Shown here: one piece after another, positions 2,370-51,777 of the stretch
Position numbering within the stretch: the first letter of the stretch is position 1
Layout of the letters: the number at the start of each line of letters is the position of its first letter
Assembly: GCF_000970305.1 (NCBI RefSeq)
Contig: NZ_CP009517.1
Coordinates: 682,001 to 746,000, forward strand
DNA: 64,000 nucleotides
Reading direction: 5' to 3'
Source of the DNA: Methanosarcina barkeri 3
GTDB taxonomy: Archaea > Halobacteriota > Methanosarcinia > Methanosarcinales > Methanosarcinaceae
The notes under the pieces: generated by a model
Databases searched by the model: none
What the model saw: the letters and a program-made list of their open reading frames with translations, nothing else
What the model was told of the DNA's origin: nothing
Position numbers and translations under genes: made by a program

Positions 2370-3027
2370 GGGAAAAAAGCACTATTAAGAAATATTTAAA
2401 ACTTCTACACCTGAATTAACTTGGAAATATTTGACTAAAAGTATCAACAAGGAAAATTATTTATATCATACATAGGTAATAAGAATCCGGTTGCTTACGA
2501 CGGGAAATATTAAAGCCTCATTTCACACACCAGAAACAAAACGGTTATTATGAAAGATAAGTTTCACTCCCTTCTTCTTATCCATTTATGACCGTTTTCT
2601 CGTAAGCAGCTATCCTTTTTATCTTTACAAATTTTAAAGAATTCAGTATCGATAGTGGGAAACTCACTTAAGTAAACCTATTTGAGTCATTGAATACCTT
2701 TTTCCTATCAAAATTGACCAGCTTGGGTTATGTACTGGTATTTAAATAGAAGTACTTAAAAAGGATATCACTTTCATAAAAATATACAGTATTGTGAAGG
2801 ACTGCGAAGGAAAGTATAGAATATTTCGCAGGAAAATTCACGATGACTGTGAAAGAAGGTAAAAAACACTTTGAGAAGTATCCGAAATGTATCCCAAAAA
2901 TACTCAAAAAATATTACAAAAGTCCGAAAGCCTGGACTAAAAGCCCAGACCAGTCGGAGAATTAAGCGACTTCTTAACTGGCTTCTATTTTGAGAAGTAA
3001 CTTCAGTTTTAACAAACTATTTTTATT
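2370..3027. other. gene-poor spacer before mtmB
   Basis: About 660 bp, AT-rich. It holds the divergent promoter area of the helical-repeat protein, one possible 40-codon ORF on the plus strand (2843-2965, listed separately) and the 3' flank of mtmB. I see no RNA gene. Confidence 0.5.
2843..2965 (+). CDS. possible 40-aa basic small protein
   Basis: Open frame of 40 codons from ATG to TAA, lysine- and tyrosine-rich (it contains KKYYKSPKAW). An AGGAAAA sequence lies about 9 bases before the ATG, and AT-rich TATA-like sequence (aatatac) lies about 60 bases upstream. It points away from the helical-repeat gene and converges on mtmB. No similarity is recognised. It could be a chance frame in AT-rich DNA. 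Confidence 0.3.
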   Translation: MTVKEGKKHFEKYPKCIPKILKKYYKSPKAWTKSPDQSEN

Positions 3028-4404
3028 TTAGAATACAAGCCCTAATTCTTGGAGCTTCTTTCTTGCTCCGTCGTATACCTGCATGTACTCATCAGTTGGT
3101 GTTACTGTCTTTACGTCGTAGCATTCCTGGAATGTCTTTCCTGCCGGAGCGTTTGCATAATTCTTCTCGTAGAGTGCTACAAGCTTGTCAAGGATCACAT
3201 TTACTTCAGAGATTTCGACTCCTGCGGTTGCCCTTGCCACTTCTCCCATCATCCTGGCTTCCATACCAGTAGTCTTGTCTGTAACTACACCCTTTGCGGC
3301 TGCAACACCTGAGAGAATTTCTCTTCCAGAAGCTGTGTCAGTAATTGATTGGGCTGAAGCCTCAAGCAGACACATCTCAGTGCATGGGCCTGCACATGGG
3401 TAGTACTGGTTGCCTGACAGTATGTCTGTAAATTCTGAAATTGTTGCACATGCCCAGCCTGCAATCATCAGGGTTTCCCTGGTGTTGGTTGATCCCCAGC
3501 GTATGTGGACAGGACCGTCCAGATGCCAGCTTGCGGTGCTCATTATCACGGCGTTTATGTGGGTTGCAACGTCTACAATTGTGGTTTCTTCAATTCCACC
3601 CGCGTATCCGCCGAAAATCGGCATCTGTTCGTCCATTATGATGTCGCTATTTGCAGTGTAGTGGGCAATAACCGAGATTGCATCCAGGTCGATCTTGAGT
3701 TCACAGAGTTGCGAGACCTCGTGGCTGTCCGTACAGGTCATTCCGCCAGCACAGTCGGCGGAAATGTTTCCCTGAGCGGACAGGGAGGTCTCTGGGCCCT
3801 AGACAGCCATGCCAGGCCTACCAGCCATGGCGCAAGCATTTTTAATGAGTCTTGTTTCTGTCTTTGCAGCAAGAACTTCGTAAGGGCTCTTTGGAATAGG
3901 CGCTTTCCCGCGTACTGTAGTCATTACACCATTGACGATAGTGTCGACTTCTTTTTCCAGGGCATAGCTCATGTGAACGGGCATAAACACATTTTCGGAA
4001 ATCGGAGAACCAGTAGGTCCACCCTGCACTATTGGCTTTTTCTTGTCACCAACGTTTCTTTTCCTAACATTTACTGCTTCCCTGCCTGTACCAAGCACGA
4101 ATTCTTTCTGCACGTTGTTAATTGCATCCCAGATTTCATCTTCAGTGTACTTTACGATCCTGTGTGTGTCTGTACAGTAAATTCCGCAGTCAAGGAGCAT
4201 CTCAAAGCCTGCGTTGAAGAGTTTTTCCATCATTTCCTTGTCTGTCGGAACAAACTCTCCCTTGAAGTCAAGCCCGTATTTCTGCTTGAGTTCCATTGCC
4301 TTCATCGGGATCCTCATGAGGTCCCAGTCGTCCAGAGTACATTTTTCCCCTACTTTTGCCCTGTCATAAAAGTCATAGCAGTCAAATGATTTTCTAAATG
4401 TCAT
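3028..4404 (-). CDS. mtmB: monomethylamine:corrinoid methyltransferase MtmB (pyrrolysine protein)
   Basis: Transfers the methyl group of monomethylamine to the Co(I) corrinoid of MtmC, the entry step of methanogenesis from methylamine in the cytoplasm. Read through the amber codon (complement of 3799-3801), the frame gives 458 residues, the usual length of MtmB, and both halves match the family closely (start MTFRKSFDCYDFYDRAKVG, end YDGARKKLQELGLVF). Residue 202 is the amber-coded pyrrolysine, in the context GRPGMAV-O-GPETSLSAQGN; it binds and activates the amine in this family. Translation needs tRNA-Pyl and PylS, not encoded here. The ATG has a GGAGG ribosome binding site, and the gene lies 19 bp behind mtmC on the same strand. 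Simple gene finders will split it in two (3028-3741 and 3799-4404). Confidence 0.97.
3700..3801 (-). promoter_or_regulatory. in-frame UAG and downstream PYLIS-equivalent segment
   Basis: The amber codon is the complement of 3799-3801. The roughly 100 bases that follow correspond to the PYLIS stem-loop proposed in mtmB mRNA to assist pyrrolysine insertion. The position is certain; the structure was not folded here, and the need for PYLIS is disputed in the literature. Confidence 0.5.
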
Positions 4405-43793: not shown

Positions 43794-44164
43794 ATATACC
43801 CTTAACCTTAGAGTAACCTGCCAAACCGCAAGGTAACCGAACTTACATATTATTTGGAACAACAATCTAAAAGTTCATATATCTTAAAATATAACATATT
43901 TTAAAATGTTGAATATCAAGAGCTTAGTTCAATGGTGTAAATAAGGGACATCTGCAACTTTTCAGGCTCGTTTAAACAGATGGGGTCAGTTACGTAAAAT
44001 CATACATACCGGGCTAGGAAACCAGGAATTAAAAACATCAATTTTAAAAATTAAAAGACTCGATGACATCCTATTAATTTTGAGCCTATTGGGCTGCATA
44101 CTCTAAAATATTTTATTTCATGACTGGTCCTGATAAGCTTATACTACTGGGGGATAGAAGGAAA
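43794..44164. other. spacer before the HEAT-repeat gene
   Basis: 370 bp. A TATA-like stretch (tatcttaaaatataac near 43880-43895) and no ORF with a ribosome binding site. Confidence 0.4.
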
Positions 44165-45805
44165 ATGGATGACAATATAAAGAATCTTATTAAAAAGTTA
44201 GAACGCTCAGTCTTTGCAGGAAACCGGGCAATTGCTGCTGAAGAACTTGGAAAGCTAGGAGATTCTTATGCTTTACCTGCGCTGATTGAAGCACTTAATG
44301 ACTCAAACCCAAAGGTGAGAGTTGCCGCCGCAGAAGCCCTGGGAAAGTTCAATATACCCGGAGCTGTTCCCGGCCTTATAAAAGCACTTAATGATCCTGA
44401 TAGTCCTGTGAAAAAGACTGCAATTACTTCCCTTGAAAAAATAGGTACATCTGAAGCTATCTCAGGCATTGTGAAATGTTTCGGGGACAGGGATAGGTTT
44501 GTCCAGAAAGAAGCAGTAAAATCCTTAATGAGGATAGGTTCAAAAGATGCTATCAGTGGCCTTGAAAAAGCTCTGGCATATCCAGATGATTCGCTTAGAA
44601 GGATTTCAATAATAGCCCTTGGGAAAATTGACACTTATGAAGCCGCTAACTGTCTTGTAAAGGCAATTGAAAACTCGGATCACAAAATAAGGCAGCAAGC
44701 CGCCGAAACATTGGGAAAAAGAGGGAAATCGGATGTGCTTGATGAGCTGATGGAAATCCTCAGGGACCCTAGACAATCTGTACAAGAAACTGCATCCGAA
44801 ACGCTTTGCAAAATTGTAAGTGTTTCAACTTCAGTGCCTGTGATTGTAAAGGCGCTCGGAGCTTCGAGCAGGGATGTAAGAAAAGTTTCAATTGAAGTCC
44901 TCTGGAAGATAGGAACGCCTGAAGCAGTTTCAGGGCTTTTGAGAGCTCTGGATGACCCCGACTGGTATCTGAGAAGCCGTGCTGCAGATGCCCTGGGAGA
45001 TATAGGTTCTCCTGAAGCAGCTCGAGGACTGGTTAAAGCTTTTGATATATATGAAAACTCTGTAAGGAAGGCGATTACCTGTGCTCTTGGAAAAAGCGGA
45101 ACGCCTGAAGCCATAGAAGGGCTGATTAAAGCTCTTAACGACCCTGATAGTTCGGTCAGAGAATCAGCAGTTCTGGGTCTTGGAAAAGCAGGCACCCCTG
45201 AGGCCATCTCAGGTCTTTTAAAAGCTCTGGATGACACTAAGGCAGCAGTGAGAGAAGCTGCAGCTTCCGCGCTTGGAGATCTCAAAGCGCAGCAAGCTGT
45301 TCCGAAATTCGTGGAAATTATTGAGAACCCTGACAGTCCGATGCAAAAAATCGCGATCTGTTCACTTGAGAAAATTGGTACCCAGGAGGCAGTTTCAGGG
45401 CTTATTAGAGCTACTGGAAGTCCAGATGCCTGCGTGCGAAGGGCTGCATTGAAAGCTCTTGAAAAAATTAATAAATTCAATTCCTCACCTGCAACTACTA
45501 ATGATAAAACCGAAACCCCTGGAAAGGAGCTTATTCTTAGTAATTGTTTGAAGGGTGATGATTCTGAAGTTCCGACTGAAACTTCAAATCTCTCAGATGA
45601 GATCTGTAGTATGAGTTCTCTAAAAGAACTTGAACTTTCAATTTCTGTTGAAGAAACCAAGGAGTCAAGAGCCCACCAAAGCGCAAGTTACAAGAAAGAG
45701 AAAGGAATCGGGATGACCTGCCCATACTGCTCCAGAAACCTGAATCTCCCCACTGCCCCCAACTTCTGTCCTTTCTGCGGAATGAAGTTGAAGTTGAAAT
45801 ACTAA
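44165..45805 (+). CDS. HEAT-repeat (PBS-lyase type) protein with C-terminal zinc ribbon
   Basis: 546 aa from the ATG at 44165, chosen for the GAAGGA before it (the upstream ATG at 44120 has none). Residues about 15-455 are some 14 HEAT repeats of 31 residues with the recurring pattern AVSGLIKALNDPD..VR..A..ALGKIGTPEA. A polar linker of about 60 residues leads to a zinc ribbon CPYC...CPFC (about 518-540). HEAT-repeat solenoids of this kind bind proteins or act as bilin-lyase-like scaffolds; in methanogens the partners are unknown. The zinc ribbon suggests contact with nucleic acid or a partner protein. Neighbours give no hint. Confidence 0.88.
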   Translation: MDDNIKNLIKKLERSVFAGNRAIAAEELGKLGDSYALPALIEALNDSNPKVRVAAAEALGKFNIPGAVPGLIKALNDPDSPVKKTAITSLEKIGTSEAISGIVKCFGDRDRFVQKEAVKSLMRIGSKDAISGLEKALAYPDDSLRRISIIALGKIDTYEAANCLVKAIENSDHKIRQQAAETLGKRGKSDVLDELMEILRDPRQSVQETASETLCKIVSVSTSVPVIVKALGASSRDVRKVSIEVLWKIGTPEAVSGLLRALDDPDWYLRSRAADALGDIGSPEAARGLVKAFDIYENSVRKAITCALGKSGTPEAIEGLIKALNDPDSSVRESAVLGLGKAGTPEAISGLLKALDDTKAAVREAAASALGDLKAQQAVPKFVEIIENPDSPMQKIAICSLEKIGTQEAVSGLIRATGSPDACVRRAALKALEKINKFNSSPATTNDKTETPGKELILSNCLKGDDSEVPTETSNLSDEICSMSSLKELELSISVEETKESRAHQSASYKKEKGIGMTCPYCSRNLNLPTAPNFCPFCGMKLKLKY

Positions 45806-47069: not shown

Positions 47070-47447
47070 TCAACGGAATCTATTATTATATTCGTTTAAC
47101 CATTTCTTATGATTACCTTGCCATTTATTGTATCTGCTTTGCCATTTTTTATAGTTATCTTGCCATTTTTTATATTTATTTTCCCACTTCTTATAATCAT
47201 CACCGTATTTGTTATTGTTCCATCTTTGTTTTTCGTTATCCCAGTTTCTTTGTTCGTTATTCCAACTTTTCTTCTCTTTTTCCCAACTATTCTGTTCATT
47301 TTCCCATTGCTTCTTTTCACTGCCCCATTGCTTCTGAGTTTTTTGCGAAGCTGCACTTACTGATGCAACAGTTACTGACGATACAAAAAAGACCAGTATC
47401 AAAATGCATACTGTCTTCTTAATTTTATCAACGATTTTCTTTCCCAT
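47070..47447 (-). CDS. secreted tryptophan-heptad repeat protein
   Basis: 125 aa. AAGGAGTG precedes the ATG. Residues 1-33 are a signal peptide (CILILVFFVSSVTVASVSAA). The mature protein has no hydrophobic residues other than 11 tryptophans, placed exactly seven apart in two blocks: W41, 48, 55, 62, 69, 76 and W88, 95, 102, 109, 116. All other positions are Lys, Glu, Asn, Gln, Arg, Ser or Asp; the second block also has Tyr or His four residues after most Trp. This predicts a long helix with a tryptophan stripe, perhaps a coiled coil or a surface- or polymer-binding rod. I recognise no known family. It stands alone after a 1.1-kb gene-free region. Confidence 0.75.
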   Translation of the reverse strand: MGKKIVDKIKKTVCILILVFFVSSVTVASVSAASQKTQKQWGSEKKQWENEQNSWEKEKKSWNNEQRNWDNEKQRWNNNKYGDDYKKWENKYKKWQDNYKKWQSRYNKWQGNHKKWLNEYNNRFR

Positions 47448-48570
47448 ATGCCCACTCCTTATTTTTTCTACCTCTTTTCACTACCTTATTTTCTTCTAAT
47501 AGACTTTATTAATAGACATTTTTTATCTGTTTAATGTTGTTGTATCTGATTTGATGTAGTTTAGACTGTTTTTGATGTAGTTTAAACTGTTTTTGATGTA
47601 ATTTTGAACTGTTTATTTTTTGATTTACTTCCGTGAGATATCTGTTGCAGGACAATATTTCACCAGTTAAATACTCCAATTTACACTTATAGAGCTACTG
47701 GCGATTTTTTAGGCCTAAATAAGACTTACACGCTTGATAAGCGAAACAAAAAAACATAAGCAAGTTACATAAGCAAGTTTATTGCAAGTTTATTGCAAGT
47801 TTATTGCAAGTGACTTGGAGTTTTTGCAAGTGACTCATTAGATGTCTTATAGTTTCACTCTACTTTTTCTCAGCTCAATTGTGTAATTCTTTTTTGATTC
47901 AATTGTCATACCGGCTATCTGACGGTTGCCCATCCGCCGATTGACAATTTTAAATTATATTATATTGAATATAAAATTGCTTACAGATGTAACATGACTA
48001 ACAGAACTCACCTCGAAAAATAAGTATTTTTAAACCTTAAATTATATAAAAAAGCATAAATTTCATAATTAACACTTATTGGACGCTCTAGAGATCATAT
48101 TATTAAATAAAATAAATATTATTTATCTGTCATCTTGGAGAGTTCGACTTGGATTGATTCTGAATTAAGTTTCCTAAGTGTCCTTATTTAATTCTTTATA
48201 TAACTTTATAAAAGTATCAAATTATTATGTCGAAGCAAGAACAATTATAAATTTGAAAAGTAGCCCAATGTGAAAAAAATCTCAATTTGAGCTTTTAAAG
48301 GAAAATCAGCCTTTAAAACTAACTATTTAAGAGTTATAAAGGGTTAAATCCCAAAATATTCCTGTTTAAAGTGTGAATTGTAAATTTAATCTACTAATAC
48401 TCCTGAAATAGTAAGTATTCTTTTATTTTTAAATCCAGATATAGCACCTCTGTCAGGAACATATCGATCAGTAACATCCCACCCATAGACCCAGAGATAT
48501 ACTGTAATTTTGTGCGTAATCAAAAACGATCAAGTATTTACAAAACATCGAGGAAGATTACGAGGAAACC
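47448..48570. other. 1.1-kb gene-free region between divergent genes
   Basis: No supported gene. Two short minisatellites are present: gtttaaactgtttttgatgta-type copies (about 47563-47620) and gcaagtttatt copies (about 47764-47815). Several TATA-like sequences lie in 47950-48270. It is long enough for a small RNA gene, but no conserved signature could be recognised. Confidence 0.4.
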
Positions 48571-49017
48571 ATGTGTGTAAAGACCTGCAATATTAATTCG
48601 ATAGTTCCTGACTCTACTCTCTACGAGTTAATTAAACGGACTTTGAAAATACTTAAATATGAGAAAAATGTAGCAGGGATAAAAATGCCTGATAACCCGG
48701 AGGAAAAAATGCTGATTTTGCAGCTTTCCGAAGATTCCAGAAAAATTGCCAGGCTTCTTTCAAGTGAAACTTCAGTCAGAATTCTTAAACTGCTTAATAA
48801 GAAGTCGATGTCGGCAGGAAACCTTGCCGATGAGCTTGGAGTGCGCCTGAATACTCTCAAATACAATCTGGACTCTCTTCTGGAAGCCGGAATGATTAGA
48901 GTAAGGCATGTAAAGTGGAGTCAAAAAGGAAGGGAAATAAAAGTTTATGAGGCAGCGAAAAAAGTAATTGTTTTTCTGCCTGCAAAAGAGAGTCTGGAAA
49001 CTCCGATTTATTTATGA
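48571..49017 (+). CDS. ArsR-like winged-helix transcriptional regulator
   Basis: 148 aa, cytoplasmic. The ATG follows CGAGGAAACC. The N-terminal 60 residues are unlike classical ArsR. Residues about 65-130 form a winged helix: SSETSVRILKLLNKKSMSAG, then NLADELGVRLNTLKYNLDSL as the recognition region and VKWSQKGREIKVYEAA as the wing. There is no metal-binding cysteine pair next to the recognition helix. It precedes a lipoprotein gene (200 bp later) and a membrane-tethered winged-helix gene on the same strand, suggesting a shared envelope-related function. Confidence 0.8.
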   Translation: MCVKTCNINSIVPDSTLYELIKRTLKILKYEKNVAGIKMPDNPEEKMLILQLSEDSRKIARLLSSETSVRILKLLNKKSMSAGNLADELGVRLNTLKYNLDSLLEAGMIRVRHVKWSQKGREIKVYEAAKKVIVFLPAKESLETPIYL

Positions 49018-49216
49018 ATTTCTGGCAAGATATCCCGGAAAACTCGGAGAAGCAGGAAATCCCAAAACTGTCCTGAAGTTAACTACAGGCTTCAGAGTTT
49101 TAGAACGATTCTATTGTTTCTAAGAAAGATTTTTAAAATAACCAACTATTAATATACGAACTCGATTAAAAGATACAGTTCAGCAATGAGTTCTATTCCA
49201 TAGGACGTGGCCCAGT

Positions 49217-50293
49217 ATGAAAATCAAATTTCTGTCCTTACTCCTTATACTCGCAGCCATTATCGTGGTCGTAGGCTGCGTTAATGAGGGGACTCAGAGC
49301 TTTTACTGTAAAGCTCCAGAAGATCTAACTAGGACTATTTTTTTCCCTTATATCGGGCTTCTGAACCACGGGGAATCCGAAATACCAGGCCCTCACCCCA
49401 ATGGGCTCCCTCCAGACAGGTTTAATTCAGGCCCTGATTCCATTACTCTGAAAGATGCAACATTTCTTCTTGACAGAAACATCGAAAAAGCAGAAACGAT
49501 TTCGTTAAAGCTTAAAGCCGGGATTGAGCGTTATAAAGCAGAAGGGGAAGATGTTAGAAGACTTGAAGCCCTGCTTGAAGAGTATAACCGTCTTATAAAT
49601 GAAGCAAAGCAATATAGAGCCCTTGCGAATACAACTTCAGATGAGGAGAATAACAGCTCAATTGCGAATTCGAGTCAATGTAACAGTTCATCCGAAAATA
49701 TGAAAGTAGACTATTTGATCCGGTCTCAGAAGAGTATGATGCAAGCTAATCATGTCCTGAGAGATATTTTCGAGGAACTTAATTCTTTAATGGGAAGCGA
49801 AGAACTCAACAACACATCCCGGCTTACTTCGACAGGAGAAGGAAAAGCTATTCTTATGGGCAGTTTCACCCTGAATATGCACCTGAAAGACGGAGAAATG
49901 GTAATAATGGGTCTTTCCAGGGACTCCGAGATTGATATAAACGGGGATTATACATTTGAAGAGAATACCGATATGTATGATACGGTGCGCCTTTACCATA
50001 TAAATTCTGCTGATGTGAAGATCTCAGGTTCCCGCAAGACAGTAATGTTAAACAATGAAAATATTACCCTCACTGCGGATGGCGAGGGTTACGTAGCTTT
50101 CCAGGGAGACGGTACTTACAGTGTTGAAGAGGCAGGTAGGATAATGAAAGAAGATAAGTGGGCTAAACCTTTCTTTGAAGAAGGAATGAATTCCCAAAAG
50201 CACAAGCCTGACAGAAATGACAATAATACCGGGTATGAGCCGGATAAGAATGACAACGATAATAGTAATCGGCAAAGGAAGGGCATGAAGTAA
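49217..50293 (+). CDS. lipoprotein-like exported protein of unknown function
   Basis: 358 aa. The signal peptide ends in a lipobox-like VVVGC (about residues 17-21). A helical segment with coiled-coil character lies at about 95-145 (AETISLKLKAGIERYKAEGE and on), an N-glycosylation-rich linker at 145-160, another helix to about 200, then a beta-rich domain (about 205-300) with GSFTLNMHLKDGEMVIMGL and VKISGSRKTVMLNNENITL. The C-terminus is Asn/Asp/Lys-rich. It sits between two winged-helix genes on the same strand. It could be the exported sensor or structural partner in that group; no family is recognised. Confidence 0.7.
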   Translation: MKIKFLSLLLILAAIIVVVGCVNEGTQSFYCKAPEDLTRTIFFPYIGLLNHGESEIPGPHPNGLPPDRFNSGPDSITLKDATFLLDRNIEKAETISLKLKAGIERYKAEGEDVRRLEALLEEYNRLINEAKQYRALANTTSDEENNSSIANSSQCNSSSENMKVDYLIRSQKSMMQANHVLRDIFEELNSLMGSEELNNTSRLTSTGEGKAILMGSFTLNMHLKDGEMVIMGLSRDSEIDINGDYTFEENTDMYDTVRLYHINSADVKISGSRKTVMLNNENITLTADGEGYVAFQGDGTYSVEEAGRIMKEDKWAKPFFEEGMNSQKHKPDRNDNNTGYEPDKNDNDNSNRQRKGMK

Positions 50294-50385
50294 TACCATG
50301 CATCATGCTAACAGTGCTTATCCGAAAATAGAATGCAGGCAAGATTTTCTGGAGAAGCAGTGAACGTTCCAGGAGAATATTAAAA

Positions 50386-51777
50386 ATGCCTGGAAAAATA
50401 GAAAATCAATATAAAACTCTGGGTCTATCGAAGATGAATTTAAGGCTGTATATTATTTGTATCGCTGCCGTACTTGCTTTATTAGCAGGACCTGCTTTAG
50501 CAGATAGTACGGCCACAGTTCATGGGACGGCATACAGATGGGATACCTTCGAGCCTCTAGATAATGCAGTGGTCGAGGTAAATTCTACTCCCTCACAGTC
50601 CATGGTAGCAAAATATGGTGTGTATTCGTTTAATCTGATGCCCGGAGATTATAATATTACAGCTAATTACTATGAGAACAGCAGTATTAAATATTCTGCA
50701 AATGAGAATATTACAGTTAAAGATCAAGGAAAATATTTACTGGATCTCCTGCTCCTTCCGGTTTATTCGGAAGAACTCATGAGCGATTCCGAACTAAACG
50801 GCCTTTCCGAAAACCAGAACAGAACTGCAAAAAGCGCCTCTAACACAACAGATTCGCTAACAGACATATCCACAAGTCCGACGGCAAGCAAAGGTAATTC
50901 TAGCAGCATGTATCTGGCCAATCAAAACATCATTGGCAATATAAATTTAAACTATCTGTTAATAGCAGTCATTTTACTTCTTATCCTGCTTGCAGCAGGC
51001 TACCGAGTTTCCAGAAAGAATAAAAAAATAGAGGAATATCAGCCTTTTAAAAGTGCACATAAAATCTCAGGTATGGGAGCAGATGAAAAAGGACATACTA
51101 CAGGAGACTTTTTCAAACCAGTTAAGGTGCCCGAAATTTCGGTAGAAGTCTATGATGAAAGAGTAGGAGTTCCTCATGAGAGCTTAGAACCCGAGCTAAA
51201 ATGGGATTCTCAGGTACAGGAATCTAGGACAAAGTCCTTTGAAACTTCGCCTTTAATAGAACCAATAGCAGATCCTGCGAAAGAGCCTGTAAAAGAATCG
51301 ATAACGGAATCTCTGCAGGAGCCTGTAAAAGAATCAGTAAAAGAACCTGTTAATGAACATGTAAAGCCGATAGTAACAGAATTATCACCTGGAATCCCGG
51401 AACCGAAAGTTCAGGAGGACTTTGGAGGAATTAAAGCGGATTCTCAGGAAAATGAAATAAAACTACTTGAATCTGATCCGCAAAAAAAGAAACAGGGAGT
51501 CCCCTCTGAAGAAGCTGAGAATAAACCTGCAGAGAGTTCTGAAACTGAAACTCCTCTTTCCAGGAAGAAGCTCCCGCTTCCAGCAGACCTCCAGGAGGTC
51601 ATGGATATAATTCGAGGCCAGGGAGGCAGGATCACACAGAAAGATTTACGCAGTAAGCTGAAATATTCCGAAGGAAAGGTTAGCCTCATGCTTGCAGACC
51701 TGGAAAGAAGAGAACTGATCGAGAAGTTCAAGCGGGGACGTGGGAATGTTGTTATCCTGAGAGATGAGGAGCGCTGA
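50386..51777 (+). CDS. membrane-tethered winged-helix regulator with extracytoplasmic beta domain
   Basis: 463 aa. AGGAG stands about 10 bases before the ATG. Signal/anchor at about 20-39, then an extracytoplasmic carboxypeptidase-regulatory-like beta sandwich (about 42-120: VHGTAYRWDTFEPLDNAVVE, PGDYNITANYY), a Ser/Thr/Asn-rich linker, a transmembrane helix at 189-206 and a long acidic cytoplasmic linker with repeated EPVKES units. The C-terminal 70 residues are a MarR-like winged helix (DLQEVMDIIRGQGGRITQKD, KLKYSEGKVSLMLADLERR). This one-component layout would couple a signal outside the membrane to DNA binding inside. It is 92 bp behind the lipoprotein gene. Confidence 0.82.
   Translation: MPGKIENQYKTLGLSKMNLRLYIICIAAVLALLAGPALADSTATVHGTAYRWDTFEPLDNAVVEVNSTPSQSMVAKYGVYSFNLMPGDYNITANYYENSSIKYSANENITVKDQGKYLLDLLLLPVYSEELMSDSELNGLSENQNRTAKSASNTTDSLTDISTSPTASKGNSSSMYLANQNIIGNINLNYLLIAVILLLILLAAGYRVSRKNKKIEEYQPFKSAHKISGMGADEKGHTTGDFFKPVKVPEISVEVYDERVGVPHESLEPELKWDSQVQESRTKSFETSPLIEPIADPAKEPVKESITESLQEPVKESVKEPVNEHVKPIVTELSPGIPEPKVQEDFGGIKADSQENEIKLLESDPQKKKQGVPSEEAENKPAESSETETPLSRKKLPLPADLQEVMDIIRGQGGRITQKDLRSKLKYSEGKVSLMLADLERRELIEKFKRGRGNVVILRDEER

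Follow-up and report, generated by a model that had tools for sequence, protein, structure and literature searches.

Do three neighbouring genes on one strand, encoding a soluble winged-helix protein (g1), an exported lipoprotein (g2) and a membrane-anchored winged-helix protein (g3), make up one envelope-signalling system in Methanosarcina barkeri 3, and if so, which of the three belong together? A first-pass annotation of the window (the whole stretch of 64,000 nucleotides that was analysed) had described positions 48571-51777 as such a trio, with an ArsR-like regulator, a lipoprotein that might carry a ligand and a one-step sensor-regulator. On balance, we favour the reading that g3 senses the envelope and, from the membrane, directly controls the gene of its exported partner. 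The arguments for this reading, and for the alternatives to it, are set out below.

Gene starts, gene order and the soluble regulator g1

All three open reading frames were found on the + strand, as had been annotated, but the starts of g1 and g3 needed correction (Table 1). In relatives, frame-breaking indels occur across codons 1-38 of g1 as it was originally called, while a ribosome-site-like GGGAT/GGAGA together with AAAAATGCC is conserved at codon 39; g1 was therefore assigned the shorter frame of 110 codons. The start of g3 is probably M17. Selection on the three genes is purifying (dN/dS ~0.05-0.35 for pairs with finite dS; 0.05-0.26 for g1) and their order recurs across species, and we therefore conclude that the trio is not a chance arrangement.

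Gene order was compared in 31 Methanosarcina genomes, consisting of the genome of the window and G001-G030. Conservation of this order had been chosen beforehand as a test of the trio, and g2-g3 proved to be retained in 24 of the 31 genomes, 19 of which also have g1 in the order g1-g2-g3. The other five (G006, G010, G015, G021 and G022) have a decayed g1 or none. Individual genomes show irregularities: g2 and g3 are ~1.8 kb apart in G027, g3 is split across two frames in G019, and g3 runs off the contig in G009. From these counts we conclude that g2-g3 is the core, and that g1 is an accessory, genus-level and dispensable gene. The idea of an indivisible trio thus has to give way to an ancient unit of a g2-like and a g3-like gene, to which g1 was added at the level of the genus. 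In addition, g1 and g2 likely belong to two separate transcription units, because the gap of ~200 bp between them contains a promoter-like sequence with a TATA-like box that is conserved in the genus.

The winged helix of g1 is well supported, with a match to PF12840 (HTH_20) of 49.0 bits at a gathering cut-off of 27, but the label ArsR-like does not hold in the strict sense of an ArsR/SmtB metal sensor, because g1 contains no Cys. Its score against the NCBIfam ArsR/SmtB model was likewise below the cut-off (27.4 vs 55), and we rejected this assignment; the score against the ArnR model NF041016 was 19.2, below the cut-off of 400. The closest paralogue of g1 in its own genome (L169 1649-2626, 325 aa) has a winged helix followed by two transmembrane regions, and g1, which has no transmembrane segment, ends just ahead of the point where the first of these begins in the paralogue. 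This points to g1 as a soluble, clipped relative of a winged-helix protein anchored by two transmembrane segments, specific to Methanosarcina.

Table 1. Features of the g1-g2-g3 locus, with positions in the window.
Feature	Position	Strand	Remarks
CTTTATATAACTTTA, 10-bp-phased CTTTA pair like those of divergent relatives	48194..48208	+	same strand in 4/23 trio loci checked
Candidate operator block CTTTAAA...30 bp...CTTTATAA..CTTAA	48327..48379	-	the leader's TATA-like box follows after ~45 bp
Probable TATA box ATTTTTAAAT of the leader-g1 transcript	48425..48434	+	AT-rich and conserved, just ahead of the leader; inferred
Conserved structured leader RNA (candidate), stem GTCAGGAAC(A)TATCGA / TCGATAGTTCCTGAC	48452..48612	+	covarying arms, covariance model
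g1, soluble winged-helix regulator (HTH_20), 110 aa	48685..49017	+	corrected start, HTH_20 match
Promoter-like TATTAATATA (TATA-like box) upstream of g2	49148..49157	+	conserved in genus
g2, predicted exported lipoprotein, helical bundle + C-terminal beta domain	49217..50293	+	g2 family beside g3-like regulators
g3, transmembrane transcription regulator	50434..51777	+	probable start M17; earlier start 50386
g3 extracytoplasmic transthyretin-like / carboxypeptidase-regulatory-like domain	50512..50760	+	residues 43-125, predicted fold
g3 DUF7343 winged helix	51586..51759	+	residues 401-458; MarR Z 11.3

The tethered regulator g3 and its exported partner

The predicted structure of g3 agreed with the outside beta-sandwich, single membrane helix and inside winged helix of the first-pass annotation. 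Behind an N-terminal hydrophobic, signal-like segment lies a beta-sandwich (pLDDT ~97) that aligned over 80 residues with carboxypeptidase D domain II (Z 12.2, rmsd 1.6) and also, over 80 residues, with 6hif_Y (rmsd 1.8). At the sequence level, g3 was not found among the matches listed for CarboxypepD_reg (PF13620), and relatives scored 17.7-19.8, below the cut-off of 32.3. The sandwich is followed by a transmembrane helix (residues 188-214), a disordered linker of ~190 residues that is of low confidence in the predicted structure, and a DUF7343 winged helix (PF24034; 56.5 bits, gathering cut-off 27.6) that was predicted with a pLDDT of ~95 over residues 400-458 and whose fold matches MarR-type domains. 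Nearly all family members have the N-terminal hydrophobic segment, the ecto domain, the transmembrane helix and the winged helix. In an alignment of 70 sequences, G87, Y89 and D120 of the outside domain are invariant, as are S428, E429, K431, S433, K447, G451, R452 and N454 of the recognition helix and wing; the DNA-contact residues, whose absence from orthologues had been named in advance as grounds for giving up the proposal, are thus kept. This architecture supports the earlier view of g3 as a one-step sensor-regulator.

The linker of g3 is indeed long, but it is only mildly acidic (39 D/E vs 28 K/R in 187 residues), and its length varies from 25 to ~200 residues across the family. A single transmembrane helix followed by a long disordered stretch, as in Methanosarcina g3, would also suit a protein from which the winged helix is freed by intramembrane proteolysis to act as a free regulator, with the linker as the region of cleavage and reach. 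We consider this very unlikely, given that linkers are as short as ~25 residues in relatives (L064), so that the family does not depend on a long one, and that a metalloprotease-like ORF near the L066 pair is not a common neighbour in the locus maps.

The partner, g2 (358 aa), is a predicted archaeal lipoprotein, as had been proposed, with a lipobox Cys after the signal peptide (VVGC, Cys21, in the window; SGC in other aligned copies) that is conserved across Methanosarcina. The predicted structure contains a helical bundle (residues 78-191) and a beta domain (194-314). No Pfam family reached its cut-off in g2, and a Foldseek search gave no confident relative (best E 2.3e-3, probability 0.11). 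In fold comparisons, cupin-like entries reached a Z of 5 or less, and helical bundles a Z of up to 11.5, which is within the range expected of unrelated bundles.

The association of the two genes extends beyond the trio. In a sample of 80 loci that were fetched using g3 alone, the regulator is accompanied in 60 by a g2-like gene no more than 700 bp away, either divergent (35) or in tandem (25). Full-length loci examined from other families of the phylum gave a similar picture: in 7 of 10, the regulator is divergent from the gene of an exported protein of the coil or coil/beta type, and one of these seven partners is split into two genes. The commonest arrangement is therefore the divergent one, with a candidate operator between the genes. 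Many of the divergent loci are alike in their downstream genes, which in L066 are an ACT-like gene, homoserine dehydrogenase and DNA ligase. In a tree of 70 regulators, a clade of divergent copies is set apart (97/95) from one that holds the tandem, trio and orphan copies, and in which the orphan Methanosarcina regulators fall within the trio lineage. The tandem g2 of Methanosarcina corresponds to a C-terminal helical part plus the beta domain. Taken together, the pair of a g3-like regulator and a g2-like exported coil/beta protein appears to be older than the trio. We found no description of it under COG2512 or DUF7343 in the open-access literature, subscription journals being outside the search.

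What does the exported protein do in this pair? The suggestion that the lipoprotein is a ligand carrier is not supported as stated and becomes one option among others, because two tandem partners in L067 have no lipobox Cys (SGM/SGF), the tandem partners in Methanolobus are mostly not flagged as lipoproteins, and the layout is most often divergent. With a candidate operator between mostly divergent genes, a regulator and its target fit at least as well. A different possibility is that g2 is not a target but a sensory partner, i.e. an exported coil/beta protein that would bind a signal or report envelope damage and dock on the outside domain of g3, by analogy with the ToxS/TcpH-type partners of ToxR/TcpP in bacteria. 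Such a role would suit the long shared conservation of the exported protein and a regulator equipped with an outside domain, as well as the overlap of tandem genes (4 bp in several pairs, reminiscent of translational coupling). Against it, the divergent partner in Methanosarcina has lost the beta domain while its regulator keeps the outside domain, and coil and beta are encoded separately elsewhere, as in L172; we regard it as rather unlikely.

Several related genes were seen in passing. The genome of the window encodes three further DUF7343-type proteins (L061 7256-8203, L062 6831-7892 and L170 1977-2585), the last of which has the winged helix and no outside domain. Upstream of orphan DUF7343 regulators in Methanosarcina, a gene for an exported protein of 111 aa is seen repeatedly (L116 4843-5178 and similar). 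Within the window, 47070-47447 (-) encodes a small exported Trp/Lys-rich protein of 125 aa that resembles genes beside an orphan DUF7343 regulator (L061 8687-9067), and 45986-46408 (-) is an apparent decayed remnant of an exported coil-protein gene, the intact counterpart of which (286-325 aa) lies divergently upstream of the trio in several relatives (e.g. L085 2462-3421). Positions 44120-45805 (+) encode a HEAT-repeat protein of 561 aa with a zinc-ribbon-like C-terminal end, a homologue of which is located upstream of the pair in L084.

Candidate operator repeats and a candidate leader RNA

The divergent intergenic regions, several of which are close to 200 bp, contain ACTTTA at a density of 7.9 per kb, vs 1.2 in control upstream regions. 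Of 45 divergent regions, 24 contained CTTTA pairs phased by 10/11 bp, as did 5 of 7 distant ones, vs 13 of 481 controls. Here it should be considered that the divergent regions are related by descent, so that the counts are not phylogenetically independent, and that the data used to discover the motif overlap with those used to count it. CTTTA was enriched 3-6 fold and ATTTA and CTTTT were not, which disfavours generic A-tract curvature as the origin of the repeats. The helically phased CTTTA repeats between divergent pairs are thus a candidate operator, and g3 would be the protein that binds them, because no genes other than the regulator and its partner are shared by all these loci. Orphan regulators have no phased CTTTA arrays upstream, and tandem copies outside Methanosarcina show the repeat weakly.

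In the window, a phased CTTTA pair and a block with two CTTTA 30 bp apart were found upstream of the trio (Table 1). The phased pair is not enriched genome-wide (65 matches vs 76 for a reversed control). The block was present in 22 of the 25 Methanosarcina trio or pair loci examined; it is missing in L030, L032 and L088, which have either no g1 or a decayed one, and still present in L084 and L090 despite a decaying g1. Because it is lost together with g1, the block may serve the promoter of g1 rather than g2-g3. The same loss could be taken to mean that repeats and block alike serve as operators for g1 or a different soluble factor, with g3 and g2 as neighbours between which there is no direct regulation; this we deem unlikely, as none of the divergent loci with the repeats has a g1.

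The stretch between the TATA-like box and g1 contains an element of ~130-215 nt that is closed by GTCAGGAAC.../...GTTCCTGAC and that we consider a candidate 5' leader or separate small RNA. In all 20 species tested its two arms pair, mostly over 15-17 bp, and the arms of the same species scored -160.5 vs -111.9 (sd 9.1) for permuted arms, with none as good in 20000 permutations, species relatedness being a confound in this comparison. Since the arms pair over such a length and covary, GTCAGGAA/TTCCTGAC is disfavoured as a plain protein-binding dyad. Applied to the plain alignment, RNAalifold gave only 9 pairs, two of them compensated, because the inner arm was misaligned. With a covariance model, a strong copy was detected in 18 of 40 genomes, once in each and invariably at this locus, and no match was detected outside Methanosarcina among these 40; a second match in G003 was weak (E 0.04). 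The leader is retained in genomes with a g1 pseudogene and, weakly, in G010 and G021, and some genomes have lost g1 together with both the upstream block and the leader.

No Rfam family matched the leader. Elsewhere in the window, Rfam matches above gathering score were sRNA154 at 2488-2622 (+) and PYLIS_1 at 3702-3801 (-). In M. mazei MM2441-MM2440, the second cistron encodes the regulator, and sRNA162 is located next to MM2442 in a gap of 739 bp (PMC3510493), whereas g1 comes first and has its own leader; identity of the two loci is thus not supported by gene order.

Proposed mode of action and related systems

According to the favoured reading, g3 would be a membrane-tethered one-component regulator whose transthyretin-like domain reads some envelope feature outside the cell, and whose DUF7343 winged helix would bind phased CTTTA-type repeats close to the promoters of g3 itself and of the g2-family partner. 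Production of the partner would thereby be tuned to the state of the envelope. In Methanosarcina, a duplicated tandem copy (the g2 lipoprotein, then g3) would have gained an upstream module made up of the repeat block, the structured leader RNA and the soluble regulator g1. We infer the binding of the repeats by g3, the direction of regulation, the sensed signal, and the roles of g1 and the leader. That the tethered regulator with its lipoprotein partner, the repeat block, the leader RNA and the soluble winged-helix protein all act together, as a three-layer envelope-sensing unit of Methanosarcina, is a possibility that we put forward tentatively.

In ToxR and CadC the DNA-binding domain is N-terminal, and in ArnR the winged helix precedes two transmembrane segments. 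The order is reversed in g3, with an N-terminal outside domain and a C-terminal winged helix; it further differs from ToxR, TcpP and CadC in its DUF7343 winged helix, transthyretin-like sensor and fixed exported coil/beta partner, and from ArnR in having one transmembrane helix. With its DUF7343 winged helix and transmembrane helix, g3 nonetheless falls within the transmembrane transcription regulators (ToxR, TcpP, CadC), defined in a census by a predicted DNA-binding domain and at least one transmembrane region in one protein (PMC10269533), and like them it combines DNA-binding domain, membrane helix and outside sensor domain for one-step signalling. It also resembles ArnR/ArnR1 of Sulfolobus as an archaeal membrane-bound one-component winged-helix regulator (PMC6396743). 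The ArnR-like order itself is found in the paralogue of g1, although g1 is without transmembrane segment.

Archaeal membrane-bound regulators have been counted in censuses, and few have been tied to targets or signals. In the g3 family, an exported partner and a candidate operator lie next to the regulator, a set-up that several families of one phylum have in common. A further element that may have a regulatory role is the leader RNA upstream of the trio. Since the family occurs in Methanosarcina, which is genetically tractable, it would be possible to test directly whether a tethered regulator senses the envelope.
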